A stretch of DNA of 64,000 nt. It comes from Sipunculus nudus (taxonomy: Eukaryota; Annelida; Sipuncula; Golfingiida; Sipunculidae). Shown here in pieces: positions 1 to 61,027 of the stretch. The stretch is from positions 74,151,642-74,215,641 of the forward strand of contig CM049306.1 of assembly GCA_026874595.1 (NCBI GenBank), in the 5' to 3' direction. The position numbers and the translations under genes are program-made. Under the pieces are notes generated by a model, which saw nothing but the letters and a program-made list of their open reading frames with translations, was not told the origin of the DNA and searched no databases. Position 1 is the first letter of the stretch; every line of letters starts with the position of its first letter.

Positions 1-354
1 CCTTTTAAAAATCCTGGATTGATTGTTACTTGTATCAAAATCCCGTAATAACTTATTTATAATGTTGCTAACAAACAAGCAGTCAAACAAACTAACGCGG
101 GCTTAGCATAACTTCCTTAGCAGAGGTAATTATTGACGCCATAAGGCATAAGCATTGTAAATTGGGCAACTATGTATGTGCTGTCCTGCTTAAACCATGA
201 TTTAGACTAGCCCCTTACCAGGTTTAATTTTTCGGGAGTTAAACTTTGATTTAAACTAAGTTTAACTCAAAACTTTTGTTCTGCATACAGTTTAACCTTA
301 AACCGATCATTAAACTGAGTTTAACGCTTAAACCACGTATATGCATATTACTGC
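1..354. other. Non-coding; TTTAAAC-rich stretch
   Basis: No gene is seen. Between about 218 and 345 the words AGTTTAAC, TTTAAACT and TTAAACC recur in both orientations, as in the ends of small DNA transposons, but I cannot set element boundaries. At 105-135 there is a partial match to the end of the TACCTCCGC element described at 7,544. Confidence 0.4.
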
Positions 355-1130
355 ATATGGCCCTTAGAGTTTATGCTAGGCCTCCAATGTACGACTATGA
401 GGTGGCCTACAAGATAGAAGAATTGATGTATATGGCAGATACCCTTGGCAGAGCGGGATTTATTGAGAAAAAGAGAGATCAAAGTGCAAAAAAGAGATTA
501 TGAAACTGTGCACATGATTATGTACCAATTTCAAAAGAAGGACAAGCTAGAATCAGACATGGCACTCAAGAAAGATCCAGATGTGTACACTCGGAGATAC
601 GATCAAGAATGCGTAGCCAGAGAACAAAGACAAACTTTCATTCACATAAGAATTGTATTTAAATTTCATATATGCAGAATTTTTAGGAGTCGCGCCTAGT
701 TGTTCCGAAAGCTGGTCGTGTGGATAGTATTGATAAAGTTCATAAAAGTCTTATACAGGAATAAAAAGGATGTCACAGAAGAGCCCGAGAAATGTATTGG
801 CTTGGGATGAATGGACAGATTTCAAAAAGGATTCAGAGATGTGAGACATTCAGAGCAAAGCCAATGAAATAATACAAAGACCTATTAAGGCTCCATGAGC
901 TTCCTACCTTGGAGAGAAAAGAACATGGCTTATCTTAGTGCATGTGATAACCACAGCTATGTGTGGATTATTGATAAGATTTCATTGAAATAGATCTGCT
1001 GAAAGACAAAAGGGCATGAGAAGTGATCGGAAAGTTAACAACACATTGTGCATTACATTGTTTCCCATCGAAAGTGGTGAGTGAGAATGGACCACCATTT
1101 GATTTTCAGGGAATTTGCTACATAGCATAT
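355..1130 (+). mobile_element. Gypsy-type LTR retroelement fossil (RNase H to integrase)
   Basis: This is a decayed piece of the pol region of a Ty3/Gypsy-type LTR retroelement on the plus strand. Short translated stretches resemble the end of RNase H (a YDYEVAYK stretch followed by MADTL, near 395-445) and then the integrase zinc-binding and core regions (about 690-1,110, with words such as ENGPP). No LTRs, gag or protease can be recognised in the window, so this is an internal fragment. It is broken by many interruptions and looks old. The family call rests on order and local resemblance of motifs and not on a database search. Confidence 0.65.
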
Positions 1131-1289
1131 GCTATACAGTAAAAGCATATAAATAGCTCTCCGTAAATATCTGCTGCTGAGATTGCTATGTAATAAAATT
1201 TCACATAAAAACGTGCCGTTACAAAGGAGATACAAAGAAGATAAACGAACACTCCGTTGATCTATGTGACAAATTAATTCAGAATGTTA

Positions 1290-2450
1290 AATAGAATTGA
1301 GGCTGTTGATTCGGATGCCAGCGTAGACATTAATAAACTTTGGGCTTTTTTAAAACAAAATCGCCATGGTGGTTCTCAGAGGACTACATAATTTTTAAAG
1401 GTGTATGTAAAATGTCCCCGTATGACATAGCCGAATCTTTAGGGAATTCATTAAAAGGTTTATGCTCGTCGGGTTTTAGTCTTTTGATTCGCATCCCTAT
1501 AGCTGTGTAAATGAGTGTAGAGCTGTTGCAAAAAGAATCGTTAAATCAATATAACCATGTGCTAGATCACTGTCATAACACAATAAGCGGTAAAGCTGCG
1601 GTTGAGAAGCTTTATCGTAGGAAATGCAGAGCTCTGGCTACTTTTAACACTTCTTTTTAATTTGATATTGCAGCAAGCGTGGTTTACTATTGATTTGAAA
1701 AAGGGGATTATAATAATTCTTTTAAATTCCCAGAAGCGTCATAACAGTCCTGACAGTTATAGAGGTATTACGCATCTACTTGTGCTGCACACGTTTTTTT
1801 TTAAGTTTTGTATAATAGAATACCCAGATGGAGTGTTCCCACAAGTTTACCAAATGTACTCATATTTGTGATGACGTTTATTGTGCACACCAGCCGCAAT
1901 TGAATGTATGTCATATGCTGCAAGAGTGTATTTTTAATAATTTAGAAAGGCATTCGAGAGTATTTGTCTGCTTCCTAGACGCCAGGAAGGCCTTTGATGT
2001 TGTGTTGTACGAGGGATTACTACACAAAGGATACCCTACAGGTAGATAAGGAAAATTACTGAGAGTAATCTTGGACCTTATTCTGATATGAAGAGTTCCG
2101 TCATGTTTAAAGGTTGTTTTAGTGAAGGGTTTAGGGTAGAACGGTCTGTAGGGCAAAGAGGGGTTTTGTCACCATGGTTGTACAAACTCTTCATAAATAA
2201 ACTTTTTTGGACCTGGGAAGTGTGGTTATGGTGCTCTAGTAAGAAATATCAACACTGACTCTCCTGCGGAGGCAGATGATATTGCCTTAATATCTCTGTC
2301 AACTTCGGGTCCGCATCGAATGATTATAACCTGTATGTTATGAATATAGTCGGAAGTGGAGGTTCGACCGTAATGTTGCTGAAACTGTGATAATGGTTTT
2401 GATAAAAGATGGTTAGTTTTCAAACAAGGAATACCTTTTATATTTTGCAG
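1290..2450 (+). mobile_element. LINE (non-LTR retrotransposon) reverse-transcriptase relic
   Basis: Plus-strand remnants of a LINE reverse transcriptase appear in the expected order. DLKKGIII followed by SYRGIT lies at about 1,690-1,775. The catalytic-region word FLDARKAFD lies at about 1,970-1,998, GVLSPW at 2,160-2,177 and ADDIALIS (the YADD-like box) at 2,272-2,295. The pieces sit in different frames: the 1,690 block and GVLSPW share one frame, while FLDARKAFD and ADDIALIS share another, so at least three frame changes plus stops have accumulated. The 5' endonuclease domain and a 3' tail are not seen. The wording is that of LINEs common in mollusc genomes; the clade is not assigned. Confidence 0.8.
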
Positions 2451-2840
2451 ACCGTAAATCAATATTGTTAACTGTCACACTCAAGTAGGCATGCAAAATA
2501 TTACACAGCAAATATACAGTTCAGAGGAGTGTAAAGACCTTATATAGGCGTGAAACTCAGAATAGTAACAAAATTTTCAACGTGTTCATTACTCAGTATA
2601 TATATATATATATATATATGCATTTTTTACTATTTCTTCTGTTAAAATGTTATGTTTAAATATATCATCTCTCCCGCAGAATAACAACCGTAGGAATATC
2701 TAAAATCACTTCGTCTCAAACAGTGATGATAAATTGGTGAAGTCTCGCTGGCATGTCACACCCAAGGTCTCCCTGCACTGCGATTTCCAATACAACTCGG
2801 CCTTGATACCGGCCTTGTTGTCTGACTTGTTTCGTCCTTT
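2451..2840. repeat. Non-coding, with a (TA)n tract at 2,597-2,619
   Basis: A 23-bp TA microsatellite lies at 2,597-2,619. Nothing else is recognised in this gap before the putative promoter of the peptide gene. Confidence 0.6.
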
Positions 2841-3033
2841 TATAAAGACCATTAGTTTGTATATCTTGAATCACCTGATGAATGTGCCCATATTACCGTG
2901 ACAGCATTCCTCGCCCATCCGTGCACATACCCGCCACAGTTACTACCGTGTTGTGAGACCACTTCTGATAAGCTTACGAACAGCAATATCTATTAAAACG
3001 CAGACATCATCAACTTGTGCGTAAACTTATGAG
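2841..3033 (+). promoter_or_regulatory. Possible TATA box and non-coding first exon of the peptide gene
   Basis: TATAAA at 2,841-2,846 is followed by about 190 bp ending in GAG at 3,033 and a good donor, GTACGT, at 3,034. A clear acceptor (pyrimidine-rich, ending TTTTCAG at 3,620) lies 587 bp downstream, ten bases before the ATG of the peptide precursor. The simplest reading is a non-coding first exon from roughly 2,870 to 3,033 spliced to 3,621. The acceptor is seen; the promoter and first exon are inferred. Confidence 0.35.
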
Positions 3034-3630
3034 GTACGTGTTTAAAAAATGATTCTTAATGATAATTTAACATTTCTTCAGGTTTGATGACCACCAAGTA
3101 TATCAGAGAAATAAATATAAAAATTACAACAATATAATTCTATGTATAAAGTTACATTAATACTCTTTGACAAAAATTTGAAAATTCTTTAATCAATGAA
3201 ATGTTACATCATTATATGAAATGCCCAATTTAATATAGCTTAATTCTATGAGCAGCCGATGTAATACACTAAATTTTAAAGGCGACTTTATTACCATACA
3301 TGCTATTGAACTCCAAGTAAAGATATTAAAATCTTTTTGTACACAATTGACTTTGTCGTTATCACTTGAAAGATCTTTAGTTGGTGCTTAAAACAATAAG
3401 ACCTTCATTTTACTAAGTTCCTCAAATATCAGTGCATTACATTCTTCTAGATATGATCAATCATTTGGAGTCAGTTGAATGTACCAGGGGGAAAATACTA
3501 ATTCCTCGTTTCTGGCTAATATTTTAAGCAAGATAGGGAGAGTATTGGGATGTGAAGCCGCTTTAGGTTTACTTTTATTCGGGACACCCGTTTTATCCAA
3601 TTTTCAATTTTAATTTTCAGACCATTTACC

Positions 3631-3951
3631 ATGAAAGTTGCGGGTGTCCTTTTCCTGGCCCTGGTCATTCTTACTTGTGGACACGTTCAGGCTAGGCCGC
3701 CAACCGCTAAAGTACAAGGGCAGGCTGGGTTTCTGATCGGCAGGATTACATCACATGGTATCTATGGTGACGTCATTCATTCGCGTCGTCGTAGGAGCGA
3801 ATCATCCGGTAAAGCACAAGGGCAGGCTGGGTTTCTAATCGGCAGGATTACATCAGATGGTATCTATGGTGACGTCATTCATTCGCGTCGTCGTAGGAGC
3901 GAATCATCCGGTAAAGCACAGGGCCAAGCTGGGATTATCTTCGGCAATTAA
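3631..3951 (+). CDS. Secreted repeat-peptide precursor with tetra-arginine cleavage sites
   Basis: A 106-residue precursor. Residues 1-21 form a typical signal peptide: Lys2, a hydrophobic core of V, L, I, A and F, and a likely cut after Ala21. Residues 22-26 are a short RPPTA linker. Then come two 34-residue units (27-60, 61-94) and a truncated third (95-106, ending GIIFGN). Each full unit reads K-A/V-QGQAGFLIGRITS-D/H-GIYGDVIHS, then RRRR, then SESSG. Cutting at RRRR (52-55, 86-89) would release two 30-residue peptides (22-51, 56-85) and one of 17 residues (90-106). The only cysteine (Cys16) is in the signal peptide. No glycine precedes RRRR, so C-terminal amidation is not predicted. An acceptor at 3,620 lies just upstream, so the whole protein sits in one exon. 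The layout fits a neuropeptide or antimicrobial-peptide prohormone processed by a furin or PC-type protease. I recognise no family. Confidence 0.75.
   Translation: MKVAGVLFLALVILTCGHVQARPPTAKVQGQAGFLIGRITSHGIYGDVIHSRRRRSESSGKAQGQAGFLIGRITSDGIYGDVIHSRRRRSESSGKAQGQAGIIFGN
3709..3948 (+). repeat. In-frame 102-bp coding tandem repeat (2.35 copies)
   Basis: Units lie at 3,709-3,810, 3,811-3,912 and a partial one at 3,913-3,948. The two full units differ at only three bases out of 102: one Val/Ala change, one His/Asp change and one silent change. This implies recent duplication or homogenisation. The partial third unit is more diverged. Confidence 0.9.
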
Positions 3952-4059
3952 GATATCACATGAAGTGAGGAGGGAGTATGATGAAGGTAAAACAACACAG
4001 CCACTGACGGCGAAGCCCAATATATAGTGGAGCCCTGTAGTAAACTAATATAACTAATA

Positions 4060-4438
4060 CTGTAATCGGCTTCAAATTCTTGGGGTTAAAATTTCGCAAT
4101 TTTCAATTTTTCTTTGTTTCGCGAGGGTTCCATTTTCGCTATCTCACACTACAAAAGACCTTTATACAGAGGATAGTCTTTATTATGTGAAATAATTATA
4201 TCAAATATTATGTGATCATAATCTAATTGTTCCTTAACGGAAGGCAACTGGACAGGTCTGCTACCTTTAAAAAGATCAATCTTTAACAAACGCGATCATT
4301 TTTTATTCGTAATGTCAACCTTTAAATTTTCAACTTTGCCTTCGACGATTGGACCTCTTATTCACGAAATTTTTATTTTCGCGATAATTCCACTTTCGCG
4401 AATATCGTGAACTTGAAAACAAAAAAAAGCAAATACAG
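4060..4438. mobile_element. Small inverted-repeat DNA transposon (CTGT/TTCGCG family)
   Basis: About 379 bp bounded by CTGTA at the left and its complement TACAG at the right, each flanked by TA, which fits a 2-bp TA target duplication. Subterminal TTCGCGAGGGTTCCATTTTCGC on the left and TTCGCGATAATTCCACTTTCGC on the right are characteristic. The left half closely resembles the left end of the 983-bp element at 45,950, so both belong to one non-autonomous family. No transposase is present. TA targets suggest a Tc1/mariner-type mobiliser, by inference. Confidence 0.6.
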
Positions 4439-5383
4439 TATATATGACATTGTGCATAACGAGGGCGCTTTGTCTTGGCAGTAACAATCACAGTATTTGA
4501 AACTGTGCGTATCGAGGGAGCTTTGTCCTAGCGGTAACAAACACAGTATATAACACTATGCGTATCGAGGGCGCTTTGTCCTAGCGGTAATAACCACCGT
4601 ATATGATACTGTGCGTATCGAGGGCGCTTTGTCCTAGCGGTTACAACCACAGTTTATGACTGTGCGTCTCGAGGGCGCTTTGCCCTAGCGGTAACAACCA
4701 CAGTATATGACACTGTGCGTATCAAGGACGCTTTGTCATAACGGTAACAACCACAGTGTATGATACTGTGCGTATCGAGGGCGCTTTGCCCTAGCGGTAA
4801 TAACCACAGTGTATGGTACTATGCGTATCGAGGGCGCTTTGCCCTAGCGGTAACAACCCAATATATGACACTGTGCGTATCAAGGACGCTTTGTCATAAC
4901 GGTAACAACCACAGTGTATGATACTGTGCGTGTCGAGGGCGTTTTGTCCTGGAGGTAACAACCACAGTATATGATACTCTGCGTGTCGAGGGCGCTTTGT
5001 CCTAGCGGTAACAACCACAGTATATGAAACTGTGCGTATCGAGGGCGCTTTGTCTTAGCGGTAACAACCATAGTGTATGGTACTATGCGTATCGAGAGCG
5101 CTTTGTCCTGGAGGTAAAAACCACAGTATTTGGTACTGTGCCTATCGACGACGCTTTTTCCTAGTGGTAACAACCACAGTATATGACACTGTGCGTATCG
5201 AGGGCGCTTTGTCCTAGCGGTAACAACCACAGTATATGATACTATGCGTATCGAGGGCGCTTTGTCCTAGCGGTAACAACCACAGTATATGACACTGTGC
5301 GTATCGAGGGCGCTATGTCCTAGCGGTAACAACCACAGTGTATGATACTGTGCATATCGAGGGCGCTTTGTCCTGGCGGTAAC
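4435..5383. repeat. 53-bp satellite array, about 18 copies
   Basis: A head-to-tail array of a 53-bp unit; the core words are GTATCGAGGGCGCTTTGTCC and TAGCGGTAACAACCACAG. It covers about 949 bp, which is about 17.9 units. Copies differ by scattered substitutions (for example CTAGCGG, CTGGAGG and ATAACGG at the same site). Because 53 is not a multiple of 3, frames shift from unit to unit; the long minus-strand open frames here are an artefact of the repeat. The array begins inside the last bases of the transposon end at 4,438. Confidence 0.95.
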
Positions 5384-6154
5384 CCGTGCGAGCCAAGCTT
5401 GTATTCATGCGGTCAGACATTCAACAAACATGCAGGGATTTACCAGTATGCTGAGTTAATTCGGACAGAGTAGGTCTTGTCAGAAAGTATGCTAATAATA
5501 CTAACGATTGGTTTAGTTTATGTCAATTGACAGCGTACTTGTAGGCCATGAGACGTTGTCAAGGATTATGCCATATATGAATATATATATACATATGTAT
5601 TATTTAAAGACCGCTTGGCCGAAAGTATACTAAATGATATTGCAAATGACCAAAGATATGCTACCAGGGAAAGAAGATGTACTAGTATTTGTCATGGATC
5701 AGAAGTAAATTAGATTTTTTAATGTTGTTCGCAATTTTTATGTGATAATAAAGGGCGAAATGTTGATGCTTTCTTTCTCGCCACTGATCGCATCCGGTGC
5801 AAGTTATATCTACTTTGTTTAGGCCCAAGGAAATGGTTAAAGTACGAAGAAATGTTTTAAACGCGTTTAATTTTTAGGAGAGAACTCTGTATTTCATGTA
5901 AACCTAGTATGCCTAATTCTACTTGCAAATGGCCCCCTTCTCCATACCATTGTGGCCCCGGAAGGACGCTTTGAATGACCATACATAAATGTTTATCATG
6001 AAGCCATTATTCACATGAAAGTTACGTTCATGCAGTTGGTAATCAGTTATTTTCATTTCGTTTCAGCCAAACAGGGGTGACATCAGCCTTCACAGTGATT
6101 AGCCTAAAGAAGACGGCATGATTATCAAACACGGAGCCGCTAATCCTAGGACAG

Positions 6155-6839: not shown

Positions 6840-7022
6840 CGGTACGATTTACAACGGTTCTTACAGGAATACTACAATTATCAATGGCCCTGACAAGAAT
6901 AAAAACGATTATCAATTGCCCTGCAAAATCAATACAATTTTCATGGGCCTGACAAGAATCACTTTGATTTTCAATGGCCCTGACAAGAATCAATACGATT
7001 TTTCGATGACTCTGACAAGAAT
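6840..7022. repeat. Degenerate 31-bp minisatellite, 5-6 copies
   Basis: The unit resembles CCCTGACAAGAATC followed by AATACGATTTTCAATGG. Clear starts are at about 6,888, 6,919, 6,949, 6,978 and 7,009, with an eroded copy before the first. Spacing is 30-31 bp. The minus-strand open frame crossing it, with its repeating protein words, is explained by the repeat. Confidence 0.8.
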
Positions 7023-19884: not shown

Positions 19885-20400
19885 GTCTAACAGGATAACT
19901 GTTGTCTGTACGTAACTCATATAAACATCACTAATAAAGTTTTCACTGTACTAAATAAGATTAGTTTAAGTGCATAAATCATTGAGCCTATTCAAACAAA
20001 AAATTTGGGAAAACTATCACGTCTGATTACACCAATTATTCACGAAGAAAGCAATCGTATGGGCGGTCAACTTGGTGTAACAATGCTTTTAGGGCAGTCT
20101 GTCTCTCTTTCTGTCTCTGTTTGTCTGTCCGTCCGTCCTGGCGGAAGGCGTGTTCAGGCATTCGTCACCAAGTGGGCGTTGGTGCAGTTGCTCTGCTGGC
20201 TCGTCCGACTTCTCGTCTTGCCTCCGGTTCGGCCAGGGCTGCAGCTCAACTGTCTCTTTCATATTTTACGCTAGATTTAGCATGGCATCTACAGAATTAT
20301 AGCTAAGGCTTTATTTCACGTCCATCATCTAAAAATTTCTACTCAAAACCTCTCAATTACCCACTTACAAGTTGCTTAGAAGCTGACTTGGTCTGGTTTA
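19885..20400. repeat. Block inverted relative to copy B
   Basis: This block aligns to 45,113-45,600 only in reverse complement; for example GAAGGCGTGTTCAGGCATTC at about 20,146 is the complement of the text near 45,350. The flanks on both sides (GGGAAAGCCACTGG to the left, AACAATACAACTCGG-type sequence to the right) stay collinear. It contains a TCTG/TCTC-rich patch. Confidence 0.9.
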
Positions 20401-28765: not shown

Positions 28766-29172
28766 TGACCGCGACGGTTTTTTAAATTTCGCGATATTCG
28801 CGAAAGAAAATTATCCCGAAAATGAAACATTTTGTGCATAAGACTCGTTCAGTACAGTAGAACAGTGAATTATACCATTTATACTCTACCTTTATTGGGA
28901 TCCTATATGTATACATTATTACGTTATCCATGCATTAAGCGTCGAAAATTATGAGACAAAAGGTTATAAATGATAACCTTTTTTGTGTATAACCCGTAAA
29001 ACCAACACTGGAACCATAAATAAAATCTAGATGTTTCATAATGTCGGTCAAAAATGAATATCCAGTTTTTTTCCAGCCTGCGACAAAACGATTAGTGTTT
29101 ATTATACTCTGTGTATGTTTCTGAAAAAGAAAATCGCGAAAATGAAAATCTCGCGAAAGAATGAAAATGGAG
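28766..29172. mobile_element. Remnant of TTCGCG-type transposon before coding exon 1, copy A
   Basis: TTCGCGATATTCGCGAAAG near 28,785 and ATCGCGAAAATGAAAATC near 29,135 resemble the two inner ends of the TTCGCG family. Matching words occur in copy B at about 56,525 and 56,830. Outer ends are not clear, so the boundaries are approximate. Confidence 0.35.
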
Positions 29173-29261
29173 AAATGAAATACTATACAGAAGAACTTTT
29201 ATTTTTTTTTTATATTTTAGTATTTGTTTTATTTATTTGTATCATTATTACTTGCAGCCCT

Positions 29262-32200
29262 ATGATTGGTTCCAAGCGCACGCAGGATGGAAGACCCGCG
29301 GGAATTCTTGAGGCCATTAAACGTTGTGATGAAAAAGAGACCCATCAGTTGTTAGATCTCAGTAAAGATTTTGACCTCGAACGCCAGGGGCACAGGTGCG
29401 ACGGTACCGCCCTCTACTGGGCGTCGTGCCGTGGGTGGCTGGATGTGGTTGGGTTGCTGCTTGCTCTTGGGGCGGATGTCTCAAGTCAGACCATGTGGGG
29501 AGGTACACCCCTACACGCCGCCGCAGATAACAATCAACTTAATGTTGCAAGGTAAATATTGTCTCACTGGGCTCATGCTGAAAGAGTATTGAGTCCGAGT
29601 AAATCTAACCGATTACTCAAGTCTTCATTTCAGATTTAGTACCCTCGTATACGTCATCAAGGAATCTTCACAAATGTGCAGTCATTTATACCCGAATGAA
29701 CATGGGGAAAGTGGGCCGAATAAGTGAATGCAAACACGAGTTAGTGAGCATCTCACAAAAAGGAAACCCCACACATGGCGGAGGCTTCCATTCCTCAGAA
29801 TGTAGATGTCTACATTTCTACTTTTGCCACCTTTTCTTTAAAAGAGTTACTTTTTCCTACTCCTTTTTTTCCTGTTGATTGTTGTGAAAGTTTGCTAGTT
29901 TTGTTATATGTAGACCATATATATATCCAAAATGGAACACTATATGATCTCATCACAGTCAATATAACACGTTAAAAAAAAGGTCATCAATTTTTAACTG
30001 TTTAGCTTTCAAAACATACAACAGTAGCGTTCCATTATGCCAATCAGAGTCCGCTGTTGCATTCAAAATTTTCAACCAGTTTCATCCCTAGCGACTGCAA
30101 ACATAACATAAACGCCGGGTCCATTATATACCGCTACCTTTAAACCCATCAAGAGCAAATTTCAGTGCGGCAGTCAGGTAGATATATAACCTAATACACG
30201 TATGACTTGTCAGTATATATTTATGTAGTTTCTTTTTCCATCAACCCATTTAGAATTTTAAGGATAAAATGCGAGTTTATTTATTGGCTTAGATAGATGC
30301 TGATCAGGTCCACATAATGTTAAAATGATAAAAATCACGTACCATACAACCTACGCCAATTAATGTGTAAGCACCATCCGTCTTTTTAACTCAGCATTTC
30401 CTGTACAGATATAATTATAATCTGCGACTGATTTTACAGGCATCATTATATGATTGCGCACAAAAATAACTCGTGAGAAACTCTTCCTTGTATAATATGT
30501 GATGTTGAAGCATCAATGAATTTTCTGTGTTTATATCTCAATTCATTTCATACTTTTTTAAACGTATGAAAAGCTATATGAATATAAAACAGAATATCAT
30601 TTTACCGCAATACTGAAATTTCACCAATTTGTTCCTTTTTAGCTGAGAATGATGAAATGAGCATGATAATAATAACATATCAGGGCTGTAAATAAATAGG
30701 TTAACTACAGAAACGTATATAGTGTATATTTCATATATTATTGGTTTTATTTGTTATCACACGCATTTGATAAAAAGTTATGAATGACAGTGTTGGCACT
30801 CTATACTTTTTTAAAGTAACATACTTGGTTTCAGGCAAGACTTCTTTTTATACTTTTTCATACTTCACGGGGGTTAATATATAATTTTTATAATTTCTTT
30901 TTAGCTAAGCTCAGCGAGTTACGCACGTTTTTGTGTTTTAAGCGCTTAGTAAATCAGACTTGTGTCATTATTCTGGGCCTCAAAACAGAATTTTTGCACT
31001 CAACCCAAAACTAAAACACTGTGCATCCGCTGTACATTTCACATTGTATAAACCATGCAAAATATGAAGAAATTCGACCCAGCCAGTCCTTCAAAACTGT
31101 TGCGGACACAAGTGCAAAATGGTCGCTTTTCCTGCTGTCGATGTATGAAATACATACTCTATAGTAAAGATTGCATAGATCTTTTTGATATTCGACAGAC
31201 CTATTGATCATGGATAGCTCTTTCTGCTGTGGCAGACTAGTGGTGCCCTCTACACTTTATTCATTTTTTTTTCATTTCTTTTTTTGTACTTTCTAATGGT
31301 TTGCCATTTGTTACCACGGCACAAATCGTAACCATTGACCTTAAAACTTCTTACATATTATTCAAGCCGGTCCTTTGTAAATCTCCTTCCATAAAAAAAA
31401 TAGATCAGTATGACCTATATTTTGCAAGTAACGCGTATTTTTGGCACTTAGAAAAACAGGCTTGTGTAAGTGTTCAGGGCTGCGAAACAAAATGTTCACT
31501 CGACCCTAAACGAAAACATTGTGCATTAACTGCACATATAACTTTGTTACCATGGAAAAAATGAAAATCGGGCCAGCCAGTTATCAGAACTGTTGCGGAC
31601 ACAATTGATTTTTTTTTTTCCATTTTCAGCTGTTGATTTATGAAATCCATACTTTAGATAAAATATTGTTACAGGTGCTATTTTTATTGTGTGACACGGG
31701 CGTAACTCGTGTTGTTGTTACATTTTATGTTTAATCCGTACTGGTTGAACTCTCGGTGTCATGTGAGCCTTGGGTTTTCACGCCTGGTCTAGGGTCACGT
31801 GATGGCCCTGGTATGTGTAGATACACAGCGATGTCTTTCTAGAGAATTCCTGAAACGCGTGTTTACTGTCCTTATAGACTATTCGAGAAGTGGAAAATTC
31901 CCGGCTTGGGGTGTGAAGGTATATAAAAGGGCTGTTTTCTAGAACCAGAGGGCAGACAGCAGAGTAGATACCAGCGGACGCAGAAGCGTGTGTCAGGACC
32001 TTATCCGACGAATGCGGCAATTATAGATTTTCAAGAACTTTCTCCTGGATTTTATACATTTGGGCTTCAGTTTATTTACTATATTGTTGCAAGAACTTTC
32101 CACTGGACTGTCATTCTCCGAAAGTTTACATTCAAAGGACTTATCGTAGTGATGGTGTTGGTATCGAGGTACTGTACCATTATCTTGTGTGATTGTATTG

Positions 32201-45112: not shown

Positions 45113-45600
45113 TTTACCAGTCAGCTTCTCAGCAACGTGTAAGTGAATAATTGAGAGGTTTTGAGTAAAAATTTTTGAGATAATGGACGTGAGATAAAGC
45201 CTTAGCTATAGTTCTGTAGATGCCATCCTAAATCTATAGCGTAAAAATATCAAAGAGACAGTTGAGCTGCAGCCCCGGCCGAACCGGAGGCAAGACGAGA
45301 AGTCGGACGAGCCAGCAGAGCAACTGCACCAACGCCCACTTGGTGACGAATGCCTGAACACCCCTTCCGCCAGCATAAAGACAGGATGGCATTTTCCTGA
45401 GTAATTCATGCAACAAGTGACTGAGAGCCAAATTTAGCTTCCACCGTTAACAAGGGGGGGGGGGAGACAGACGGACGGACGGACAGACAGACAGACAGAC
45501 AGAGACAGAAAGAGAGACAGACTGTCCTATTAGCATTGTTACGCATTTATGCGCTTAAACTTATCTTATTTAGTGCAACGAATAATTGTTATTGTCCAGT
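45113..45600. repeat. Block inverted relative to copy A
   Basis: Reverse-complement partner of 19,885-20,400. Contains (ACAG/ACGG)n near 45,470-45,520 and a G-run. Confidence 0.9.
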
Positions 45601-56361: not shown

Positions 56362-56949
56362 CATATTCGGTTAAGTTTCTGCGTATACACTACTAACAGT
56401 GTCTGTAACCCATCTTATTCTATGAAGATATACACAGATAACCGCGCGATCCCATATGCAGGGTCTTCTTTCTCATATGTTATTGTTATCGGCGTAATGT
56501 TCGCGACGGGTTTTTTTTTTTATTTCACGATATTCGCGAAAGGGAGATTGTTGCGAAATTATCGCGAAAAGAAACCTTTTGTGCATGAAACTGGTTCAGT
56601 ACAGTTGAACAGTGAATTATACCATTTATACTCTACCTTCATTAATACGTTATCCATGCATTAAGCGTCGAAACTTGAGAGACAAAAGGTTAAAAATGAT
56701 AACCCTTTTTGTGCATTTCCCGTAAAACCAACACTAGTACCATAAATAAAATAGATGTTACATGATGTCTGACAAAAATGAATATCTAGTTTTTTTCCAG
56801 CCCGCCACGAAATGATTTGAAATGTAAGATCGCGAAAATGAAAATCTCGAGAGAGAATGAAAATGGAGAAATTAAAAACTATACAGAAGAAATTTTATTT
56901 TATTTTAGTATTTCTTTTATTTAATTGTATCATTTTTACTTGCAGCCCT

Positions 56950-58459
56950 ATGATTGGTTCCAAGCGCACGCAGGATGAAAGACCTGCGGGAATTCTGGAG
57001 GCCATTAAACGTTGTGATGAAATGGAGACTCATCAGTTGTTAGATTTCAGTAAAGACTTTGACCTCGAACGTCAGGGGCACAGGTGCGACGGTACCGCCC
57101 TCTACTGGGCGTCGTGCCGTGGATGGCTAGATGTGGTCGGGTTGCTGCTGGCTCTCGGGGCGGATGTCTCTAGTCAGACCATGTGGGGAGGTACACCTCT
57201 ACACGCCGCCGCAGATAACAATCAACTTAATGTTGCAAGGTAAATATTGTCTCACTGGGCTGATGCTGAAAGAGTACTGAGTCCGAGTAAATCTAACCGA
57301 ATACACAAGTCTTCATTTCAGATCGAGTACCCTTGTATACGTCATCAAGGAATATTCACAAATATGCAGTCATTTATACCCGAAGGAACATGGGGAAAGT
57401 GGGACGAATGCAAACACGAGTTAGGGAGCATCTCACAAAAAGGAACCCCCACACATGGCGGAGGCTTCCATTCCTCAGAATGCAGATGTCTACATTTCTA
57501 CATTTACCACTTTTTCTTTAAAAGAGTTACTTTTTCTTACTCTTTTTTCCTGCCTTGTGATATCCAATTTAAAATGCTGTAAAATGTTGTGAAAGTGTGC
57601 TAGTTTTGTTATATTTAGACCATATATATATATACATATCCAAACTGGAACACTATGTCATCTCAACACAGTCAATAAAACACGTTAAAAAAACGGTTAT
57701 CAATTTTATAACTGTTTGGCTTTTAAAATATACAACAGTATATATATAGCGTTCGAACATGCGATTCAGAGTCGGCTGTTGCATTCAAAATTTTCAACCT
57801 GTTTTATCCATATAGCGACTGCTAACATAACATGAACGCCCCGTCTATTATATTATATACCGCTACCTTTTAACCCACCAAGAGTAAATTTTAGTGCGCC
57901 AGTCAGATAGATATACATGTATATCCTAATACACGTATATTACTGTATTTCATTTATTATCCTTTTCCATCAACCCATCGAGAATTGTAAGGATAAAATG
58001 CGGGGTTTATTTATTGGCTTCGATAGATGCTATTCAGGTCCTCATAATATAAAAATGATAAAAATCACGCACCATACTACCTTGGCCAATTAATGTGTAA
58101 GCACCATCCGTCTTTTTAACTCGGCATCTCCTGTACAGATAATTATAACGTGTGACTGATTTAACCGGCATCGTTGATATGATTGCACCAAAAAATAACT
58201 CGTGAGAAACCACTCCTCCTTGTATAATGTGTGACGCTGAAGCATCAATGAACTTTCTGTGTTCAAATATCAAGTCATTTCATACTTTTGTAAACGTATG
58301 AAAAGCTATATGATTATAAAAAACCGAAAATCATACAAAAATTTCACCAATTTGTTCCTTTTTAGAAGAGAATGATGAAATGAGCATGATAATAATCATA
58401 TATCCGGACAGTAAATAAAGAGGTAAAATACAGAAACGTATAGTATATATAAATGTATA

Positions 58460-58513
<54 letters not shown>

Positions 58514-61027
58514 TGGTTTATTTGTTATCACACCAATTAGATCAAACGTTATGAATGACAGTGCTGGCACTCTATACTTTTTTAAAAGTATCATAATTTG
58601 TTTCAGACAAGACTTATTTTTATACTTTTTCATACATTTCGGGGGTTAACAATTTTTATAATTTTTTAGCTCAGCTCAGCGAATTTACGCACGTTTTTTG
58701 TGTTTTAAGCGCTTAGAAAATAAGACTTGTGTCATTATTCTGGGCCGCAAAACAGAAATTTTCAAATCCAAAATCTAAAACTTTGTGAATCAACCATGCA
58801 AAATGTGAAGAAATACGACCAAGCCAGTTCTTGCACACAAGTGCAAAATGTTCGCTTTTCCAGATGTTGATGTATGAAATACATATACTCTGGATAAAAT
58901 ATCTCAGTAAAGATTGGATTTTTTTTTTAAATTTGGCACACCTATCGATCATGGATATCCCCTTCACTTTTGCAAGACTCATGATAAATCTAAATTTTCT
59001 TGATTGTTTAAGCATTTTAATTTAACTTTAACATTTTATGGGCTTGAAATGGAACCTATGCACTCACCATGGAAATTTTGAAGAAATTCCATTCAGTAAA
59101 TTCTTCACAACTACCACAGACACAATTGCAACAATACTAAAATGATAGACTGGTGTTTATATAGGCTCTTTACCTGAACCAGATGAATGCAATTGACATA
59201 ATCTGTCAATATTTTATAATAATGAAATTTGATTAGCTATGATTTGCCAATGTTATACATAAGCACTTGATAATGGAATACTGGAATATATATACTTTCA
59301 TACCTGAAGATTGTTTCGGAGTATCGCATGCTGTTAAATTATTCAATAATTGCGCTATTTGGCATTGATTTTTACTTTGTACATATTTTTTTCAGATAAT
59401 ATTATACTTTTTTCTTGTAAGATTTTATTGAATTCTTGTAAGATTTTATTGACTATAAATTTTATTTTTTTAGACACTTTTACACTTTTTTCTTGTAAGA
59501 TTTTATACTTTATTTCATGAAATGAAGAGTGGCAGCACTGAAATAAGTAATCTTTCTTTAGATATATACGTTAGATAGCATCCTTACGGTAAAAGAAGAA
59601 TCTACGTGTATGAATATAACTGATGTATCATGGGATACATACAGAAAATGTGTAGTTAAAAAAATTAAAGAGCGAGGGTTTTATTTCAGATTACTTCTAC
59701 GTTGGGGAGCCAATCCCAACCACCAGACCAAGCAGGGAGACACGCCCTGCCACTTAGCGGCGTTCCGCGGTCACGTGAAGATGGTTATATTATTGGTAGA
59801 AGGAGGCGCTGACGTCACCATTACAAATCGACGCAGGAATGATGTCATGAGGGAAGCATTGAGTCGGAATCATTGTAACATATTACACGAGATCTGGAAG
59901 TTAAAAGGTAAGTTAACTAGTAGTATAGACCCTATGTGTTATCATTAAATATCAATCACGTGTGAGGAACTTAAATTTATTGATTATACCTATAGACAGA
60001 CGCTTGTTCATATACTTGACTTATGTATGGAGTAGTTTGCCCGGCTTTTTTATCTATTAATATTTTAAAATAACCAACTTTTAAATTCCATTGCATTTAA
60101 ATATTACAGACAAATTGTTAGAGCTGCGTTTCCCCTGGTGAAGAAGCTATTTAGTTTGTAGCTTTATTATCATGTTACGTAATATAAAATTCCCCATCAG
60201 CCAAAATATAGTAAACGGATTGAGCAATATATATAGTTATCTCTTAATACACGTAAGCTGTCATACCACGAACAAACTTCCCAGTGCAGATATTACGATG
60301 ATGTTAATCACACAGACAGTTTAACATAATGATCATAATGACGCCATCATCATTAGTTATCTCACACAAATCAAATCCTCTTCCACTTCTTTTACGCTAG
60401 TCATTATCCAAATCACCTTTTCATAAAACACCAACAGTTAGTCATCGCACCTGAATTCCCTTTCACTTTTAATAAGTTTTATGTAAATAGAAAACATTAA
60501 AAGCAAGGCAGTGTGATACTGTCTCGTCAGTAGCAGCTAATATGAGGCGCCGGTGATGTTTCATACCAGCTAGTCAGTTTAAAATCTAAAGTTTAACATG
60601 TGGAGAGCATTGATGTTTAGGGTTTCACTATATAAATAAAATAAAACAACTGAAAACATAGTATCTATGCAAAACTCTTTTTTGGTGGATACAATTACTC
60701 TTACTATTATAAATATTGCATTATTACCTTTTATATACCATAAATCAATAAAAGACTTCTGTTTCAGAACACAATCTTAAAAAATTAGGACTAAGGCAGA
60801 CGACACGGCATACGACATCAAAATCACATGGTTCCGGTGAACTCGACCTTCGTCGCAAAGCTTCTTCCGTCTCTGGGTTTTCATCGCTGCAGGAAAAAGA
60901 GAAAGAGACCTCGGATACCCTCGGTCTTCTCCGTACAGACGACAACCACTTAAGTTCACTGTCAGATGACAGGACCCGTGGCCGGTCCGTGCTGCGACGC
61001 CAACATACGTTTCCTGGTCATAGTTAA
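56950..61027 (+). CDS. Short ankyrin-repeat protein, copy B (three coding exons)
   Basis: Coding exons are 56,950-57,239 (the exon starts at 56,946), 59,690-59,907 and 60,768-61,027. Phases are 2 and 1 as in copy A; 768 bases, 255 residues. Domain layout is that of copy A: weak ankyrin repeat about 14-45, clear repeats 47-78, 80-111 and 113-144, degenerate repeat to about 168, then a basic Ser-rich tail ending RQHTFPGHS. Changes from A: Gly10Glu, Lys25Met, Leu33Phe, one Gly to Asp in the tail, and four extra residues at the start of exon 3 (EHNLKKLGL here, EKLGL in A). Exon 2 encodes the same protein in both. The exon 2 donor is consensus GTAAGT. Intact and apparently functional; orthologue not recognised. 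The role is probably protein binding in cytosol or nucleus. Confidence 0.85.
57240..59689 (+). other. Intron 1 of ankyrin gene B
   Basis: 2.45 kb, GTAAAT to TTTCAG. Contains a TA-rich tract (58,443-58,510) and the local CTGGGCC/GCACTC repeats in two copies (about 58,738 and 59,038). Lacks the LTR of copy A. Confidence 0.75.
58443..58510. repeat. (TA)n microsatellite, copy B intron 1
   Basis: About 68 bp TA-rich. The copy A partner (about 30,717-30,740) is only a short AT-rich stretch. Confidence 0.9.
59908..60767 (+). other. Intron 2 of ankyrin gene B
   Basis: 860 bp, GTAAGT to TTTCAG, collinear with copy A. Nothing else recognised. Confidence 0.75.

Follow-up and report, generated by a model that had tools for sequence, protein, structure and literature searches.

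A candidate gene for a secreted multi-copy peptide precursor in the peanut worm Sipunculus nudus

In the peanut worm, Sipunculus nudus, a short open reading frame encodes a predicted secreted precursor that holds near-identical peptide units separated by tetra-arginine sites. The layout of the precursor is ordinary; its sequence is new, to the extent that the searched libraries can tell. We tentatively prefer to read the frame as a lineage-restricted S. nudus gene for a furin-cut, secreted, multi-copy precursor, most likely of host-defence or mucosal effectors. The frame lies in a stretch of 64,000 nucleotides, the whole of which is called the window here. A first-pass annotation, made from the letters of this DNA, had assumed a molluscan origin, and this was wrong: a mollusc or Mytilus origin is rejected, the source being S. 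nudus, a member of the Sipuncula within the Annelida (taxid 6446). The genome of this species is reported to comprise 1,427 Mb, with 17 chromosomes and 97.91% anchored (PMC10212961).

Translation of 3631-3951 on the forward strand gives 106 residues and a TAA stop in an uninterrupted reading frame, which is open already from 3556, upstream of the ATG at 3631. The precursor reads, in order, MKVAGVLFLALVILTCGHVQA, RPPTAKVQGQAGFLIGRITSHGIYGDVIHS-RRRR, SESSGKAQGQAGFLIGRITSDGIYGDVIHS-RRRR, SESSGKAQGQAGIIFGN and the stop (Table 1); counted with what follows them, unit 1 spans 3694-3795, unit 2 spans 3796-3897 and unit 3 with the stop spans 3898-3951. The features of a secreted multi-copy precursor are present, namely a predicted signal peptide and at least two near-identical units bounded by polybasic sites. 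The signal peptide was predicted from its hydrophobic core and a simple rule, with A21/R22 as the only cut considered. Its hydropathy peaks at 3.14 (11-residue window) over residues 6-16, and among the ORFs of at least 60 aa in the window, 3631-3951 alone passed the hydrophobic-start rule. Stepping 34 residues back from the end of the first RRRR leads to the proposed signal cleavage point. The sole cysteine of the precursor lies within the signal peptide, and the predicted mature part is cysteine-free. Translation bears out what the first-pass annotation had described here: the coordinates, a signal peptide with no cysteine after it, two 34-residue units, RRRR linkers, a truncated third unit and products of 30, 30 and 17 residues. 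Its label "glycine-rich" is a fair one, as one 30-mer holds five glycines and the other six.

Table 1. Coordinates of the candidate precursor gene and its predicted parts. Masses are those after predicted trimming; charges are computed at pH 7.
Feature	Position	Strand	Details
TATTAAA, possible TATA-like element of putative first exon	2991..2997	+	pattern match; weak, conjectural
Putative 5'UTR intron	3034..3620	+	GAG/GTACGT ... TTTTCAG/ACC; ends 10 nt before ATG
Signal peptide MKVAGVLFLALVILTCGHVQA	3631..3693	+	translation; proposed cleavage A21/R22; V at -3, A at -1
Unit 1 peptide RPPTAKVQGQAGFLIGRITSHGIYGDVIHS	3694..3783	+	30 aa; pI 9.99; charge +1.93; 3176.6 Da
RRRR, furin-type site 1	3784..3795	+	translation; putative cleavage
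Unit 2 peptide SESSGKAQGQAGFLIGRITSDGIYGDVIHS	3796..3885	+	30 aa; pI 5.36; charge -1.45; 3051.3 Da; predicted beta-hairpin
RRRR, furin-type site 2	3886..3897	+	translation; putative cleavage
Unit 3, truncated peptide SESSGKAQGQAGIIFGN	3898..3948	+	17 aa; charge -0.54; 1650.7 Da
Stop codon TAA	3949..3951	+	translation

There is a fair case that 3631-3951 is a real gene, because it combines a predicted signal peptide, an in-frame 102-nt repeat, a contrast in GC content and a well-scored putative 5'UTR intron. The length of the ORF by itself is not significant: ATG-initiated ORFs of at least 106 aa numbered 1.68 on average in 100 first-order resampled windows, compared with 10 in the real window. 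The tandem repeat was detected at 3704-3933 with a period of 102 nt, which is in frame, and 2.3 copies. GC content is 51% in the ORF, compared with 29% at 3035-3620 and 34% at 3952-4440. Splice sites were scored on approximate matrices for metazoans; on this scale the donor at 3034 ranks second of the 206 GT sites before 3620, with 1077 scoring higher, and the acceptor at 3620 ranks third of the 355 AG sites in 1-6000. The possible intron at 3034-3620, which had been pointed out from the letters alone, is backed by these splice-site scores and is predicted. The motif listed as a possible TATA-like element occurs a second time at 3324, within the putative intron.

The 3' side weighs against a gene, since AATAAA is missing between the stop and 5747; nor does ATTAAA occur before 6500. 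Only variants of the polyadenylation signal are found there (for example AGTAAA at 4039, AATATA at 4019 and 4047), and the 3' part could hold an intron, given a fair donor at 3965, shortly after the stop. A non-functional origin, either as a chance open frame across a short tandem duplication or as a decayed gene fragment, would accord with this missing signal, with the number of ORFs of such length expected by chance, with the truncation of the third unit, with the failure to find a credible relative and with the predominance of residue-changing differences between units 1 and 2. We nevertheless consider it very unlikely, given a signal peptide predicted at the correct end, the contrast in GC content, the in-frame repeat period, full units that both lack stops and frameshifts, and a splice acceptor that scores well and lies 10 nt ahead of the ATG.

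Of the 102 nt compared between units 1 and 2, ten are different, and nine of these differences change a residue. Seven fall within codons 1-5 (RPPTA in unit 1, SESSG in unit 2); the remaining three comprise V7A, H21D and one silent change, at codon 14. Over the first 15 nt the two units share eight matches, a number reached by 392 of 20,000 shuffles. The comparison of unit 3 with unit 2 gives nine differences in 51 nt; over all 17 codons, six of these nine are in codons whose residue changes, while in codons 1-12, which were picked post hoc after inspection, all three are silent against a random expectation of 24% silent (p ~0.014). Selection on the units is at best hinted at, because 6/9 differences between units 2 and 3 and 9/10 between units 1 and 2 fall in residue-changing codons. 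A complete third unit hidden by a frameshift was also considered and rejected, since 927 of 1000 shuffles align at least as well as the DNA that follows the stop.

Relatives were sought in the S. nudus assembly (1,426,538,692 bases, 153 contigs, with the window on contig C1), where the protein, 361 nt of DNA, the repeat unit and the signal peptide, each used as a query, match this locus alone; these genome searches score first-pass candidates only, and distant paralogs may escape them. A tblastn search of the window with 40 kb upstream gave no second match with E <0.3. K[AV]QGQAG, turned into a degenerate DNA pattern, occurs at four places in the genome, three of them within this gene and one on C11. 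The last, considered as a paralog, lies outside any open frame of at least 30 aa in the required reading, and it was judged to be chance, as the backwards control also gave one place. In Pfam nothing exceeded the cut-off, the WSK match (E 0.42) falling short of it and being judged chance, and NCBIfam held no match to the precursor. The single PHROGs match (E 0.069) was likewise judged chance. PDB sequences gave no match to either the protein or a three-unit profile. Short-pattern matches were obtained in 84 stretches of prokaryote contigs and five of viral contigs, with no confirmed relative in either set. A fold search with the low-confidence model of the whole precursor returned 302 matches up to E 10, of which none reached E <=0.001 (best E 0.39), and no mention of six fragments of the precursor sequence was found in the papers searched. 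No credible relative thus emerged in the S. nudus genome, Pfam, NCBIfam, PHROGs, PDB, or the prokaryote and viral contigs, and by these sequence comparisons, in which the S. nudus genome was the single eukaryote genome or transcript set covered, the precursor would be an orphan. The first-pass annotation could match the core to no molluscan peptide family, and these libraries likewise yielded no credible family match.

In the mechanism that we infer, 3621 to beyond 3951 would be a coding exon, and the signal peptide would direct the precursor to the secretory pathway and be removed at A21/R22. Furin or a PC-type convertase would cut after each RRRR, and a carboxypeptidase would trim the arginines, leaving two cysteine-free peptides of 30 residues and a C-terminal peptide of 17 residues. 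The furin consensus is R-X-K/R-R, and RRRR followed by S fits it. In each 30-mer the first 11 or so residues would form a loose head, followed by a mostly hydrophobic beta-hairpin whose arms, GFLIGRIT and GIYGDVIH, flank a turn of S-D (or S-H), and the peptides would act extracellularly as host-defence or mucosal effectors. By exclusion and analogy a defence role appears the most likely one; it is favoured because the precursor looks lineage-restricted, would be cut in furin fashion without amidation, and may form hairpins.

The hairpin is a prediction and not a result. Only the unit 2 peptide was folded in isolation, and in this single-sequence AlphaFold2 prediction (pTM 0.34) it forms a beta-hairpin with strands 12-19 and 22-29 around S20-D21. 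Mean pLDDT was 81.4 (70.7-81.4 over five models), with block means of 93 for residues 11-20 and 91 for residues 21-30. The model of the whole precursor, with a mean pLDDT of 62.3, places strands at 32-40 and 43-55 in unit 1, at 62-74 and 77-89 in unit 2, and at 96-103 in unit 3, with matching positions of the strand pairs in the two full units. Beta propensity exceeds alpha propensity in the hairpin arms. Repeated strand pairs and arms of this kind would also suit a secreted repeat protein with a structural or matrix role in cuticle, mucus or fibre, in which the hairpins would stack or build fibrils and RRRR would serve as an uncut charged linker. Near-identical tandem repeats, units rich in glycine and serine and an orphan sequence are in keeping with such a protein, but it is quite unlikely: the mature part, with just two and a half units, is short, and furin would find an excellent site in RRRR-S.

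A precursor of neuropeptides or peptide hormones, in which the near-identical 30-mers would be non-amidated signals of the regulated pathway, is in our view unlikely. Beta-hairpins are unusual among neuropeptides, and this counts against it, as do the length of 30 residues and the absence of a Pfam match over the cut-off. No amidation glycine stands ahead of the basic sites (units 1 and 2 both end HS-RRRR), and an amidated neuropeptide is disfavoured on this ground. Neuropeptides nonetheless commonly come from multi-copy precursors with polybasic sites; some repetitive families are not amidated, pedal peptide being an example (PMC4200219), and molluscan FMRFamide precursors are reported to have a tetrabasic furin site, RKRR (PMC5996578). 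A survey of Platynereis mentions families confined to annelids, although many of the precursors it describes fall in conserved families (PMC3890597); an orphan neuropeptide is therefore conceivable. The prohormone of the first-pass annotation stands as a layout, in which a secreted precursor carries several peptide copies, polybasic sites of furin type and the predicted products. A hormone or neuropeptide identity would be one reading among others, as the missing amidation glycine, the 30 residues and the predicted beta-hairpin fit a secreted effector or structural peptide at least equally.

The main objection to the preferred host-defence reading is low charge. The unit 2 peptide is slightly acidic, unlike most antimicrobial peptides (AMPs), and the cationic character of the precursor is mainly in RRRR. 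The cationic and anionic 30-mers differ in the head (RPPTAKV and SESSGKA, respectively) and in the turn residue (H and D). A bolder version, which we hold to be distinctly improbable, would make the precursor the founder of a class, in sipunculans, of beta-hairpin effectors that lack cysteine and are cut from a polyprotein, and whose +1.93 and -1.45 versions may co-assemble in fibrils or pores. If the cationic and anionic 30-mers do co-assemble, activity would require both copies.

Known systems resemble the precursor in part. Like the predicted peanut-worm precursor, the myticalins, linear AMPs of Mytilus, are secreted, with a cysteine-free mature peptide and a convertase site (PMC5577615). 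As described there, their genes have a first exon of 5'UTR only and an intron just before the ATG (PMC5577615). The peanut-worm equivalent of this intron is predicted, and a 5'UTR intron next to the ATG is not specific to myticalins. The myticalins differ, however, in having one mature peptide with pI >11 and >10% Arg, a KR site, an anionic C-terminal extension and a second intron inside the coding part, and they are reported as restricted to Mytiloida (PMC5577615). The peanut-worm precursor has repeated units with pI 9.99 and 5.36, RRRR sites, no extension and an uninterrupted frame. No Pfam match to the Myticin-prepro domain was found in the precursor, and genome-wide none of nine matches exceeded the cut-off; the haemocyanin beta-sandwich gave no match in the genome. 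As tests of a mollusc or Mytilus origin both are weak negatives, with none in the 14 control genomes either.

Arenicin, alvinellacin and capitellacin are annelid, come from secreted precursors and are double-stranded beta peptides with disulfide-bonded hairpins (PMC11767717). A hairpin is predicted here as in these BRICHOS-related AMPs, but the predicted mature part lacks cysteine and can form no disulfide, and the hairpin is repeated rather than single at the C-terminus. No Pfam match to the BRICHOS domain was listed at E <=10. Precursors of the pedal peptide/orcokinin type share repeated, non-amidated peptides with the one described here (PMC4200219). In the peanut worm, by contrast, the units are of 30 residues, separated by RRRR and devoid of a Pfam match over the cut-off. 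What we take to be the pedal-peptide core motif is not seen in these units. The apidaecin-like multi-copy AMP precursors of insects and frogs each hold several near-identical mature peptides; apidaecins are proline-rich and are separated by spacers other than RRRR.

A 2025 review of aquatic invertebrate AMPs gives 38 annelid AMPs from 14 species (PMC11767717). As these 14 species are made up of three Clitellata and 11 Polychaeta, Sipuncula are absent from the list in that review (PMC11767717). If expressed and processed, the peptides would represent a new orphan family in a lineage that has received little study, and their defined masses could be sought. The predicted hairpin, being free of disulfides, would make it simple to test if a natural hairpin this short can work without a bridge. 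If the product were a neuropeptide, by contrast, it would act as a lineage-specific signal that falls in none of the annelid families named by PMC3890597 and PMC7737342.

Several other features were seen in the window and upstream. A 53-bp minisatellite occupies 4441-5383, about 490 bp past the stop of the peptide gene, with 17.8 copies and 86% matches, and a degenerate 31-bp tandem array lies at 6843-7022 (5.9 copies, 75% matches). By eye, upstream ORFs (1191-2285 and 8381-8947 of L002) resemble retroelement integrase and transposase. Downstream of the peptide gene is a direct tandem duplication, 13121-36584 and 36588-63247, of about 23 and 27 kb, the pieces of which are 77-97% identical among the matches listed (the 50 longest); it contains one inverted piece, 20138-20392 versus 45116-45373. 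Each duplicate carries an ankyrin-repeat ORF (29058-29552 and 56842-57240) with an N-terminal hydrophobic stretch noted by eye, and a further ankyrin-repeat ORF at 59562-59945 (Pfam Ank, E 2.7e-11) may belong to the second copy as a later exon.
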